64,000 nucleotides of DNA from positions 62,001-126,000 of the forward strand of contig JAJYTD010000004.1 of assembly GCA_021793235.1 (NCBI GenBank). The letters run 5' to 3'. Each line of letters starts with the position of its first letter. Within the stretch, counting starts at the first letter, position 1. Under the pieces are notes generated by a model. The model had not been told where the DNA came from. It saw nothing but the letters and a program-made list of their open reading frames with translations, and ran no database searches. Source of the DNA: Actinomycetes bacterium. Lineage in GTDB: Bacteria; Actinomycetota; Actinomycetes; Streptosporangiales; Streptosporangiaceae. Below are positions 47,740 to 61,391 of the stretch, piece after piece. The position numbers and the translations under genes are program-made.

Positions 47740-47945
47740 GCTGAATCCGCACGGGAGAGTGTCCGCGCAGCCGGCGCGGGCCGCCGAAGGAGCAATTCCT
47801 CCCCAGAGAACCTCTCAGGCGCGCCGGACCGTACGGGCGAGACCACTCTGGAAAGCAGGGGCACAGGCGCCCCTCGCCGAAGGTGCAAGCCGCGCCGCCC
47901 GCGCGGTGAAGCTCTCAGGCCCCATGACAGAGGGGGAGGATGGCA
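47740..47945 (+). promoter_or_regulatory. Tandem glycine riboswitch controlling gcvT
   Basis: Two glycine aptamers lie in series in the gcvT leader. Aptamer 1 (about 47749-47823) has GGGAGAG, GCCGAAGGAGCAA and ACCTCTCAGGC. Aptamer 2 (about 47831-47939) has GACCACTCTGGAAAGC, GCCGAAGGTGCAAG and AGCTCTCAGGCCCCATGACA. The repeated GCCGAAG-N-GCAA and CTCTCAGG are the family's glycine-binding core. GAGGATGG (47936-47943) can pair with CCATCCTC (47966-47973) just before the gcvT ribosome-binding site, a possible expression platform. Glycine riboswitches usually turn gcv genes on. Confidence 0.93.
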
Positions 47946-57915: not shown

Positions 57916-58989
57916 CTAGCGCAGCGTCTCCTGAGACGGGTCCGCGGCCGATTCCCGCCCGGGGCCCGCCGCGTCGTCAGAGGGGCGCGTAAAACTCAAC
58001 GCACCTTCGATTCCGTCCACGACCCGGAAGAAATCCCGTGTGGACAACCACAGTTTATAGATGATCGCGCTCTCGAACGCGAGCAGCAAAACACCCACAA
58101 CGGCGGTAATCCACACAACCAACGCACTTGAGGCCACCGCGGCCAGGGGCGCCAGGATGAAGACCGCCATCTGGAACTCGATACCGCTCACCACGTGTGT
58201 GCGGACCCGCCGTGCACGCAGGAACTCCCAGGTCCGCTGGTACCACGGGAACCTGCTGCGGAACTCCTGGTGCAGGTCGACCTTTGGCAGTCGCACATCG
58301 GGCTGTTTGCCCGCGTCGCGGTCGTCTCTGGTCTCCTTCTCCGCCTGGGCGCGCAGGATCTGCTCCAGCACCGAGATCCCGTGCCGCAGCACCGCTTGCT
58401 CACCCTGGTCGCTCATCGGCCGGCCATCAGCCCCGCCTTCGTCCGGCTCCAGCATCGACAGCGTCGCGCGGGCGCGTTCCAGTATCCCCGCTATGTGCGA
58501 GCGCATCTCCCGGCGCATCTTGTAGACCTGCAGCGCGTTGAGGTACCGCAGCATGTCGGCGAAGACGACCGCCAGCGCCAGCCAGACGAACACCACCCGG
58601 CCGGTCAGCACGTACTGTCCGCCCATCAGCGCGATCGCGCACACCAGCACCCGGAACCGGTCGAAGATGTAGTCCATCCACGACCCGAACAGCGACTCCC
58701 TGTCCGTCAGCCGCGCCAGTTTGCCGTCCATGCAGTCCAGCAGGAAGCACAGGTAGTACAGCACTGCTCCGGCGATCAGCAACGGCCAGATTCCGACGGC
58801 GAAGCACGCGGCGGCTCCCAGCCCCATGAACATGGACGCCACGGTCAACTGGTTCGGCGTGATCGAGGTGTGATTGGCGATCAGCCGGACCAGCCGGACG
58901 GCCAGGGGGTCGACCATCCCTACCGTCCACCAGGAATCACGTGCCCTGCACGTGCGCTCCCTGACCTCCTCCAGAGTGAAACCAGCCAT
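57916..58989 (-). CDS. CDP-alcohol phosphotransferase family protein, paralogue 1
   Basis: The 357-residue membrane protein contains the complete CDP-alcohol phosphotransferase motif D88-G-x2-A-R-x8-G-x3-D-x3-D (D88, G89, A92, R93, G102, D106, D110), which binds metal and the CDP-activated donor and transfers a phosphoalcohol. Shared marks with the next gene are RDSWWTV (17-23), TPNQLT and SGIEFQM. A long hydrophilic loop (about 165-245) splits the membrane core into two halves; the C-terminus has YKLWLSTRDF. Substrates are unknown (phosphatidyl or other polyprenyl alcohol). It is followed closely by DUF3618 and preceded 268 bp upstream by its paralogue. Confidence 0.87.
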   Translation of the reverse strand: MAGFTLEEVRERTCRARDSWWTVGMVDPLAVRLVRLIANHTSITPNQLTVASMFMGLGAAACFAVGIWPLLIAGAVLYYLCFLLDCMDGKLARLTDRESLFGSWMDYIFDRFRVLVCAIALMGGQYVLTGRVVFVWLALAVVFADMLRYLNALQVYKMRREMRSHIAGILERARATLSMLEPDEGGADGRPMSDQGEQAVLRHGISVLEQILRAQAEKETRDDRDAGKQPDVRLPKVDLHQEFRSRFPWYQRTWEFLRARRVRTHVVSGIEFQMAVFILAPLAAVASSALVVWITAVVGVLLLAFESAIIYKLWLSTRDFFRVVDGIEGALSFTRPSDDAAGPGRESAADPSQETLR

Positions 58990-59206
58990 CGTCGATGAAC
59001 TCCCAAACGCGAAGCGGGGTGTGCTCCGGCCCCGCAGCGCCGGCCTGAGCACCGACGACCGGGGTGTGACGCACGAGTCTACGCACTGGGCACCGCCCTC
59101 TCAGGGGCATGCCGGATACACGGGTTCGGACAACGATAAGGCACTGTCCGCTGGGGCGGCCGTGTGACGGGTCAACCGATCCGCGACCGCGACCGAACCG
59201 GCCCGC

Positions 59207-59238
59207 TCCCCTTCCGGAGGCACAGATCCGGAAGGGGA
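59207..59238 (-). terminator. Terminator after CDP-alcohol phosphotransferase 2
   Basis: TCCCCTTCCGG (59207-59217) and CCGGAAGGGGA (59228-59238) are perfect 11-base reverse complements with a 10-base loop, 20-50 bases beyond the stop of the minus-strand gene. The rest of the 268-bp gap (58990-59206) holds the promoter of paralogue 1 and no gene. Confidence 0.75.
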
Positions 59239-59257
59239 CGGAACAAGACCAACCGGA

Positions 59258-60343
59258 CTAGTTCGCGCGTGGTGCCGCCACCACTTCCGTGTCGGCTCGC
59301 TCGTCCGTTTCCGCGTCCGCGGCCTGGGGGACGCCGTGCCCTCCGTGCGGCGCGGTTTCCTCGATTCCGGCCAGCACCCGGGAGAACTCCTTGGTGGACA
59401 ACCACAGTTTGTAGACGAGAAGCAGCTCGAACGCCATCATCAACATCGCCGAGACCCCGATCACCAGCAGCATTCCCGTTGTGGAGAACGCTCCCACGAC
59501 CGGCGCGACGATGAAGCAGCCCATCTGGAACTCGATGCCGCTGAACAGGTGCGGGCGGACCCGGTGCTCCCGCAACGTGTCCCGGAACCGGGCATACCAG
59601 GGGAACCGGGAGTTGAAGCTTCGCTGCAGCTCCGTAGCCTGCACCTCGCGGGCGCGCAGGCGCGGATCCTGGGCGGTGTCCTCGCCGAACTCGTCGTCAT
59701 CGAGTTCCGCGCGGAGGTAGACGGCCGCGTCCTCTACTCTTCTGCCGCCGAGGTCGGCGTTCAGCCGCTCGTGCGCGCCTGCCGCCGAGCCGACCTCCTC
59801 ACCGTCCCCGTACGCCGCCTCACCGGCCTCTCTGATGGCGCGTGTGAGTCTCTTGCGCATTCCCACGCGCACTTTCGCCATCTGCGGCGAGTTGAGGTAG
59901 CGGAACATGTCGGTGAACACGATTCCCAGGGTGCACCAGGCGAAGACCTGCTCACCGGTGAGCGCGTACTGGCCGCCCATCAGCGCGACCGCACACACCA
60001 GTACGCGCAGCCGGTCGAACACGTAGTCCAGCCAGCTGCCGAAGATCGACCCGTTCCCTTTCAACCGCGCGATCTTGCCGTCCATGCAGTCCAGCACGAA
60101 GCTGAAGTGGAAGAGCAGCGCGCCCGCGAGCAGCCACGGCCATTCCGCCATCGCAAAACAGCCTGCCGCTCCCAGCCCCAGAACCAGTGCCGCGAGGGTG
60201 AGCTGATTGGGGGTCAGCGAAGTTCGGTTCGCCGTCACCTGCACCAGGCGCGAGGCCAGCGGATCGACGAGATACACCGTCCACCACGAGTCCCGCGGCT
60301 TATAGGTCTGCTCCCGAACGTCGCTCAAAGTGAATACGGACAT
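59258..60343 (-). CDS. CDP-alcohol phosphotransferase family protein, paralogue 2
   Basis: The 361-residue protein is a paralogue of the gene downstream. The motif D88-G-K-I-A-R-x8-G102-x3-D106-x3-D110 occupies identical residue positions. RDSWWTVYLVDPLA, TPNQLT, ALMGGQYALTG, FNSRFPWY and YKLWLSTKEF are also shared, and both have the long hydrophilic central loop, so they arose by duplication. Start at MSVFTLSDVREQTY (ATG; an ATG five codons earlier is possible). A near-perfect 26-base palindrome lies about 70 bases upstream. The pair lies near the FhuF-like and purU genes without an obvious metabolic link. Confidence 0.87.
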   Translation of the reverse strand: MSVFTLSDVREQTYKPRDSWWTVYLVDPLASRLVQVTANRTSLTPNQLTLAALVLGLGAAGCFAMAEWPWLLAGALLFHFSFVLDCMDGKIARLKGNGSIFGSWLDYVFDRLRVLVCAVALMGGQYALTGEQVFAWCTLGIVFTDMFRYLNSPQMAKVRVGMRKRLTRAIREAGEAAYGDGEEVGSAAGAHERLNADLGGRRVEDAAVYLRAELDDDEFGEDTAQDPRLRAREVQATELQRSFNSRFPWYARFRDTLREHRVRPHLFSGIEFQMGCFIVAPVVGAFSTTGMLLVIGVSAMLMMAFELLLVYKLWLSTKEFSRVLAGIEETAPHGGHGVPQAADAETDERADTEVVAAPRAN

Positions 60344-60410
60344 GCCAGGTGTCTCCATGGGGATATCGGACCGTAGTTGTACCAGGCAAGGGGTGCGGGT
60401 CCCTTCCTTG

Positions 60411-60436
60411 GTCTGCGTACAGCGCTGCACGCAGAC
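60411..60436 (-). promoter_or_regulatory. Palindrome upstream of CDP-alcohol phosphotransferase 2
   Basis: GTCTGCGT (60411-60418) and ACGCAGAC (60429-60436) flank AGCGCT at the centre, giving a 26-base palindrome with a single mismatched pair. It lies 68 bases upstream of the gene start, in the promoter region divergent from bcp, and looks like a repressor or activator site. Confidence 0.5.
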
Positions 60437-60624
60437 TAAAGACGGCGACAAGAGACCACACCATGAAATCCACATGGATGGGGGGTTGACCGAAGATGTC
60501 ATGTCGCCGTCATAACCGTATGACGCTTCGGGCTAACGTGTGGTTGTCACACGCCGCGAGCCCGTTCATAGGCTGAGGGCGGAAACAGCAACGGGGCCGT
60601 ACGGCCCCGCCAGGAAGGAGACAC

Positions 60625-61110
60625 GTGAGCGAGACCACTGTCCGTCTGCAGCCCGGCGACACCGCACCCGACTTCACCCTTGAGGATGCGGACGGCAGGC
60701 CCGTCACGCTGAGCGAGACGCTGAAGTCCGCCGGAAAGCGCGTGGTGCTCTACTTCTATCCGGCCGCCATGACCCCCGGATGCACCACTCAGGCCTGCGA
60801 CTTCCGCGACAACTTCCGCGACTTCGATGCCGCCGGATTCACGGTTGTGGGTATTTCCCCCGACACATCCGACAAGCTCGCCGAGTTCCGCGACAAGGAG
60901 GGGCTGACCTTTCCGCTCCTCTCCGACCCGGACAAGAGCGTCCTGCGCGCCTACGGCGCCTTCGGTGAGAAGAAGAACTACGGCAGGACCGTCCAGGGCG
61001 TCATCCGCTCCACCGTCATCATCGACGCGGAAGGCACCGTGGAAAAGGCGCTCTACAACGTCAAAGCCACCGGCCATGTCGACCGGGTCAAGCGTGAACT
61101 GGGCATTTGA
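60625..61110 (+). CDS. bcp: Thiol peroxidase, Bcp/PrxQ-type peroxiredoxin
   Basis: The 161-residue protein reduces hydrogen and organic peroxides. The peroxidatic Cys53 and resolving Cys58 lie in MTPGCTTQACDFRD, the five-residue spacing of atypical two-cysteine PrxQ. Other marks are PDFTLEDADGRPVTL, VVGISPDTSDKLAEF and KNYGRTVQGVIRSTVIID (in part). It acts with thioredoxin in the cytoplasm. The GTG follows GGAAGGAG. A class I tRNA gene lies downstream after 142 bases. It is divergent from the CDP-alcohol phosphotransferase gene. Confidence 0.94.
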   Translation: MSETTVRLQPGDTAPDFTLEDADGRPVTLSETLKSAGKRVVLYFYPAAMTPGCTTQACDFRDNFRDFDAAGFTVVGISPDTSDKLAEFRDKEGLTFPLLSDPDKSVLRAYGAFGEKKNYGRTVQGVIRSTVIIDAEGTVEKALYNVKATGHVDRVKRELGI

Positions 61111-61252
61111 GGCTTTTCGGCACCCGACCTCAACGGTCCGTCCATGAACCGTGCAGGGGAGACTTGCGGCGGCTCCGTCCTGCTGTCATTCTCAGACGGA
61201 CGGCTCCGCTGGCAGCCCATAGACTTGAGAAGCGGCGCGGGGAGTCGCCCAC

Positions 61253-61326
61253 AGGGCCGTAGCCCAACAGGTAGAGGCGCAGAGCTTAGGACTCTGACAG
61301 TGCGGGTTCGAATCCCGTCGGCCCTA
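61253..61326 (+). tRNA. tRNA with anticodon UAG (class I fold; predicted Leu-CUA or atypical)
   Basis: A complete cloverleaf can be drawn. The acceptor 61253-61259 (AGGGCCG) pairs with 61319-61325; the D-arm is 61262-61278; the anticodon stem CAGAG (61280-61284) pairs with CTCTG (61292-61296). The loop CTTAGGA puts the anticodon at 61287-61289 (TAG). The five-base variable loop is 61297-61301, the T-arm 61302-61318 has loop TTCGAAT, and the discriminator is A61326. The 3' CCA is not encoded. UAG would read CUA (Leu), but bacterial tRNA-Leu normally has a long variable arm, and this one is class I. The D-arm has a 3-bp stem. Terminator 12 bases on. Confidence 0.88.
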
Positions 61327-61337
61327 CAGCAGATCAC

Positions 61338-61368
61338 CGAAGGCGCGGGACACCGTCCCGCGCCTTCG
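61338..61368. terminator. Terminator between the tRNA and the kinase gene
   Basis: CGAAGGCGCGGGAC (61338-61351) and GTCCCGCGCCTTCG (61355-61368) form a perfect 14-bp stem with a three-base loop, 12 bases after the tRNA and 24 before the convergent kinase stop. It can serve both. Confidence 0.88.
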
Positions 61369-61391
61369 GGTCGTCTCAGGCCGTGTTCTCG

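Follow-up and report, generated by a model that had tools for sequence, protein, structure and literature searches.

The locus and its tRNA gene

Within the window (the whole 64-kb stretch of DNA analysed here), ARAGORN finds one tRNA, which it types as tRNA-Leu, spanning 61253-61327 and having the anticodon at position 35, and the Rfam family RF00005 matches at 61253-61326 with 59.8 bits (E 2e-10). The gene and the features around it are as follows.

60625..61110, + strand: peroxiredoxin gene of the AhpC/TSA family (Pfam PF00578, 5.7e-41), by gene order a frequent upstream neighbour of tRNA-Leu(UAG)
61253..61326, + strand: class I tRNA-Leu(UAG), positions 1-73 (ARAGORN; RF00005; 92 bits with our model R1, of which it is itself a member)
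61262..61278, + strand: D arm GCCCAACAGGTAGAGGC, a 3-bp stem and an 11-base loop with A14, A15, G18, G19 and A20a (positional parse; class II tRNA-Leu share this plan)
61287..61289, + strand: anticodon UAG, with U33 before it and G37 after it (ARAGORN anticodon position 35; positional parse)
61297..61301, + strand: variable loop ACAGT, 5 bases, the last being U48 (parse; 5 bases in 138 of 139 distinct non-array class I UAG sequences)
61326..61326, + strand: discriminator A73 (parse; A in 138 of the same 139 sequences)
61337..61369, + strand: GC-rich hairpin of 15 bp directly 3' of the tRNA (61327-61385 folds at -36.3 kcal/mol, z -5.77)

Read by position, the tRNA has a 7-bp acceptor stem (AGGGCCG/CGGCCCT) followed by T8 and A9, a D arm that parses as GCC-CAACAGGTAGA-GGC and is followed by G26, an anticodon arm CAGAG-CTTAGGA-CTCTG and a T arm GCGGG-TTCGAAT-CCCGT; CCA is not encoded at its 3' end. 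The first-pass annotation had described a complete cloverleaf with anticodon UAG, a variable loop of five bases, A73 and a D stem of 3 bp closing an 11-base loop, and ARAGORN, RF00005 and the positional parse bear out this description. With those five bases the tRNA belongs to class I (variable loop of 4-5 bases) and not to class II (variable arm of at least 10 bases), and its anticodon loop, CTTAGGA, carries both a leucine anticodon and the U-turn base U33. Allo-tRNAs are defined by an 8/4 or 9/3 acceptor branch; here the 12 bp of the acceptor/T branch are split 7/5, without the unusual division of that group. Nor does the gene have the surroundings of an array-borne mobile tRNA, there being no second tRNA in the window, or the lost stem pairing and conserved bases of a pseudogene, as 20 of 20 stem pairs stand, one of them as G-U. 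The folding energy of this single sequence beats that of shuffled versions modestly (z -1.64, with 11 of 200 shuffles equally good).

Upstream lies the peroxiredoxin gene, which by name we take to be bcp, and downstream, on the opposite strand, a protein kinase gene (PF00069). The hairpin at 61337..61369 is probably the end of the transcript; no T run follows the tRNA, and a terminator scan that requires one found none. We found no consensus match to a sigma-70-type promoter upstream of the tRNA. A motif, CTGTCATTCTCAGACGGA, lies upstream at 61183-61200, and by eye comparable stretches lie about as far upstream in several of the 15 relatives compared. Elsewhere in the window there is a glycine riboswitch aptamer at 47742-47841 (RF00504, 62 bits), with what looks from its sequence like a GcvH-like protein about 1.4 kb beyond it, and at 57916-60502 on the - strand two adjoining genes encode proteins that appear similar by eye, the second of which (59261-60343) matches CDP-alcohol phosphatidyltransferase (PF01066).

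Covariation and the tRNA set of the genome

To see whether the gene is under selection, 40 diverse class I UAG sequences were picked from 128 distinct ones and aligned (alignment A1). Over the 20 stem pairs, 99.9% of the 800 stem cells are paired, and 16 of the 20 pairs show change on both sides. None of 500 shuffles reaches any of the five measures used, and six slid controls give 51.1% pairing at most. The structure of the window tRNA is thus far beyond chance. A model, R1, built from the 40 sequences with the window tRNA among them, gives the genome's own class I UAA gene 58.3 bits and its class II leucine genes 33.8-45.5; since the genome's tRNA-Arg(ACG) also scores 54.9, above the class II leucine genes, R1 alone assigns no amino acid.

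The genome (4.8 Mb in 119 contigs, a fragmented assembly estimated as 99.97% complete) has 59 matches to RF00005, all of which were typed by ARAGORN; on rechecking, the set was complete and free of surplus entries. There is one leucine tRNA for each of five anticodons, those for CAA, CAG and GAG being of class II (84-86 nt) and those for UAA and UAG of class I. The first-pass annotation would have counted it against its reading if another tRNA-Leu(UAG) of this genome had the normal class II form and the window gene were not transcribed; among the 59 typed tRNAs of this nearly complete, fragmented assembly we find no second tRNA-Leu(UAG) of any kind. One leuS locus scores above the family cut-off, with matches on three further contigs falling below it. 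When core identities are compared within the genome, Pro(UGG) comes nearest to the window tRNA at 0.661, followed by Trp and Leu(CAG) at 0.645.

The gene had also been suspected of being an inactive relic, that is, what is left of a degraded or passing mobile tRNA. Short tRNA-Leu genes are indeed known from tRNA arrays, those of phages included, and the missing promoter match would fit such an origin. However, the compensatory changes among relatives, the solitary position of the gene at a site that recurs across genomes (see below) and the failure to find, among the 59 typed tRNAs, any other reader of CUA, a codon that is in use, all speak against it, and we consider a relic very improbable.

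Leucine identity

For E. coli, a 2023 review (PMC9976931) gives A73, A15-U48, G18G19 and A20a as required for leucine identity, and the long arm as not required. Each of these reported bacterial LeuRS determinants is in the window tRNA, where A15 and U48 would form the tertiary pair. They are also widely kept in the 139 distinct non-array class I UAG sequences: besides the near-invariant A73, 131 of them have U48, and in 131 the D arm opens with GCCCAA or GTCCAA. Across an alignment of 13 class I and class II tRNA-Leu, A14, A15, G18 and A73 are invariant. The D stem that had been called weak is therefore the usual leucine D arm, because class I and class II tRNA-Leu share its plan, and the suspicion that fell on it and on A73 is not upheld by the 139 sequences or the 13-sequence alignment.

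Because bacterial LeuRS reportedly relies on A73 and the folded corner of the tRNA (A15-U48, G18G19, A20a and the contacts between D and T loops) and not on the long arm, the ordinary leucyl-tRNA synthetase probably charges the window tRNA; we infer this charging, and the transcription of the gene, from sequence. Of the other synthetases compatible with A73, most depend on bases of the anticodon that the window tRNA lacks, which counts against recoding.

What CUA means

Recoding nevertheless has a precedent that deserves to be weighed. In some yeast mitochondria, CUN has passed to threonine or alanine, and an unusual tRNA with a UAG anticodon underlies the change (PMC7609411). If the window tRNA were likewise charged with another amino acid, as the first-pass annotation had allowed, CUA would have been reassigned, and Pro(UGG) as its closest relative within the genome would be in keeping with this. 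We aligned one 209-kb contig with stretches of two relatives (G007 and G020), in which the UAG gene is class I and the class II pattern matched nothing, and counted aligned codons other than CTA at clean sites, meaning a CDS-like context with local GC3 of at least 0.80. At the 28 clean sites of the three genomes, CTA is aligned with leucine 23 times and once with each of M, P, A, F and I; the controls give 88/111 for CTT, 139/180 for TTG, 1021/1413 for CTC and 1150/1728 for CTG. Less filtered counts are 69 of 85, or 34 of 51 after sites with CTA only are dropped, and the genome's own codon pairs, also less filtered and with some codons counted twice, have leucine opposite CTA in 21 of 31. Judging from these alignments, CUA is still leucine. 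Together with the intact set of reported leucine determinants, the clean sites make a different amino acid an extremely improbable reading. The codon is also rare, as had been expected: in the sample from the 209-kb contig, CTA makes up 12 of the 2,419 leucine codons at CDS-like aligned positions.

We also considered whether conserved CUA codons could act as a bldA-like switch, and rejected this, as no CTA-only site survives the CDS-like filter. Before that filter, 31 of 82 CTA codons in the alignments were uninformative, with nothing but CTA opposite them. In the window genome, five of 29 aligned CTA codons are CTA in a relative as well, and all five lie in two adjacent reading frames that look to us like a cytochrome bd region. 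Two of the five are upstream of the apparent start, and the other three belong to a frame overlapping with an adjacent gene whose GC3 is higher; from these positions we take the five to be frame artefacts.

Distribution of the short form

Among 296 genomes of the class, the class I UAG pattern matches in 35, the class II UAG pattern in 159, both in none and neither in 102. The 28 genomes of the family among them, our own included, give 20 with class I and none with class II. When 120 family genomes were scanned with a broader class I UAG pattern, it matched in 87, and 31 had neither pattern; a class II pattern (UAG or UAA) matched in two, both UAG, both from one genus and both without a class I match. 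These are counts of pattern matches and not of individually folded tRNAs, and with 102 of 296 and 31 of 120 genomes matching neither pattern the distribution contains many unassigned cases. Some of the class genomes are missed partly because the patterns are strict, as in G057 (genus g56, which we take to be Streptomyces from its weight in the sample), where 20 regions taken from 68 RF00005 matches include a class II UAG gene whose D arm is odd, class II UAA, GAG and CAG, and class I CAA. Six further family genomes were examined using R1 with ARAGORN; four (G095, G190, G200 and G295) yielded class I UAG, which was not among the loci taken from the other two (G003 and G278).

A scan of named records matched at least 119 stretches, 80 of them given by name. 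Among the matches listed, class I UAG is found in Thermobifida fusca, Nocardiopsis, Streptomonospora, Micromonospora and Actinoplanes, and further in Amycolatopsis, Lentzea, Saccharopolyspora and Acidimicrobiales MAGs. Also among the matches listed are tRNA arrays in three cyanobacterial records (L244, L261, L291) and one Pyrinomonadaceae record (L226), solitary class I UAG genes on MAG contigs labelled Blastocatellia and Phycisphaera (L250, L302), and one stretch (L241) in which no tRNA-Leu was found.

Several observations from these scans stand beside the main distribution. Arrays in actinobacterial and cyanobacterial records (L082, L100 and L253, and the three cyanobacterial ones just named) carry tRNA-Leu genes for a number of anticodons, and many of these genes are short. 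Class I tRNA-Leu(CAA) occurs outside arrays at L132 (in G057), L173 (in G219), L373, L375, L376 and L378. In two g56 genomes (L098, L099), the D arm of a class I tRNA with a UAG anticodon is unlike that of the family.

A short-armed reader of UUA

The genome's only tRNA-Leu(UAA), which lies outside the window (L053, G000:C34:180394-180467), is class I as well, and its anticodon loop, CCTAAAA, has C33 in place of U33. U33 is nearly universal in tRNAs, and C33 in the reader of UUA may be stranger than an armless UAG tRNA. A C33 UAA pattern matches in 59 of the 120 family genomes and 38 of 68 genera, with the loop CCTAAAA in the 59 matches listed; a class I UAA pattern with U33 matches in 53 of the 120, and the two occur together in four, all as counts of pattern matches, a minority of which were folded individually.

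In the window genome, then, the readers of CUA and UUA are short-armed only, and the CAA, CAG and GAG tRNAs are long-armed. Has part of the Actinomycetes split its leucine tRNAs into two structural classes, letting cells tune the A-ending codons CUA and UUA apart from the rest? We regard this as unlikely. If it were true, tuning by tRNA modification, charging rate or efficiency on the ribosome would be akin to the bldA/UUA switch of Streptomyces, but wider.

Two forms at one site

The place of the gene bears on where the short form came from. We counted as a peroxiredoxin neighbour any tblastn homologue of the window's gene (E of 1e-15 or less) within 1.5 kb upstream on the same strand. It is present at 51 of 66 class I loci from the genome samples, the remaining 15 having less than 1.7 kb of flank, and at 12 of 27 class II loci, with eight lacking it and seven having a short flank, these being fetched loci and not a random sample. 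In the named collection, among the matches listed, 42 of 103 class I loci have it, 13 have a short flank and 48 lack it despite enough flank, so that the gene order is not universal. Within one genus, the peroxiredoxin site holds a class II gene in one species (L342) and a class I gene in another (L345), and the two class II family genomes (L408, L409) also have their class II UAG gene at this site.

Since both forms sit downstream of the peroxiredoxin gene and class II is the general bacterial form, a replacement of class II by class I in situ is probable: a long-armed tRNA-Leu(UAG) behind the peroxiredoxin gene was most likely swapped for a class I one at the same spot. Both the direction and the route of this replacement are inferred. 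The newcomer need not have been a shortened resident; with the same function, it could have come from a mobile tRNA array and entered the site behind the peroxiredoxin gene by recombination. Against 488 distinct parsed tRNAs, the nearest relatives of the window tRNA with another anticodon are array-borne class I tRNA-Leu (0.806 at best, L078), and its acceptor and D stems are unlike those of class II, both of which are as an import would predict. On the other hand, the mean core identity of non-array class I UAG sequences is 0.633 to class II UAG (25), 0.639 to class I UAA (22) and 0.664 to array UAG (3 usable), values so close that these 75 bases do not decide between loss of the arm and import from an array. 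We give the import somewhat less than an even chance.

All of the above, taken as a whole, makes it highly probable that the gene encodes a functional leucine tRNA, the sole reader of CUA found in its genome, likely charged by LeuRS, with a class I form that most likely replaced class II in place. Of the possibilities raised at first, the true but atypical tRNA-Leu is thus the one supported, through its identity elements, the codon alignments, covariation and gene order.

Comparison with known systems

Our literature search took in titles and the openings of abstracts, with few subscription papers covered, and within that scope gave no report of a class I tRNA-Leu as the sole chromosomal gene in bacteria. 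As far as these sources go, what appears new is that, across much of a bacterial family, a solitary class I gene is the only reader of CUA found, the one precedent found being a cluster tRNA of Mycobacterium. The finding suggests that the long arm is dispensable on a bacterial chromosome. Bacteria whose only identified CUA reader lacks it would allow the discrimination of tRNAs by LeuRS and SerRS to be tested in a natural setting, and the peroxiredoxin gene order provides a natural comparison of before and after, down to two species in one genus. Isotype calling by arm length could misjudge short tRNA-Leu genes.

Compared with the canonical class II tRNA-Leu(UAG) of bacteria, the class I form shares the UAG anticodon loop, A73, A14, A15-U48, G18G19 and the plan of a 3-bp D stem and its loop, and in several genomes also the place downstream of the peroxiredoxin gene. 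It differs in its acceptor stem, in a variable region of 5 bases against 13-16, in A9 against G9, and in a D stem that is usually GCC/GGC against GCG/CGC. The precedent reported from Mycobacterium mucogenicum and a close relative (PMC6582537) is a short-variable-loop tRNA-Leu(TAG) in a tRNA gene cluster, with a normal long-armed gene also present. It has the leucine TAG anticodon and the short variable loop in common with the window tRNA, but is described there as an extra copy in a cluster, whereas the window tRNA is solitary and the only UAG isoacceptor found. Microbacterium phage Pumpernickel has tRNA-Leu genes of 75-76 nt for CAG, CAA and GAG, going by annotated lengths; unlike the solitary window gene these are array-borne, and the phage's own UAG gene is 83 nt. 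According to the same 2023 review (PMC9976931), the long arm is a trait of tRNA-Leu everywhere except in animal mitochondria, and human mt-tRNA-Leu(UUR) is leucylated without it, its identity being essentially A73 and A14. The animal mitochondrial tRNA-Leu is thus armless like the window tRNA, but it is organellar, whereas the tRNA described here belongs to a bacterial genome that keeps class II tRNAs for CAA, CAG and GAG.
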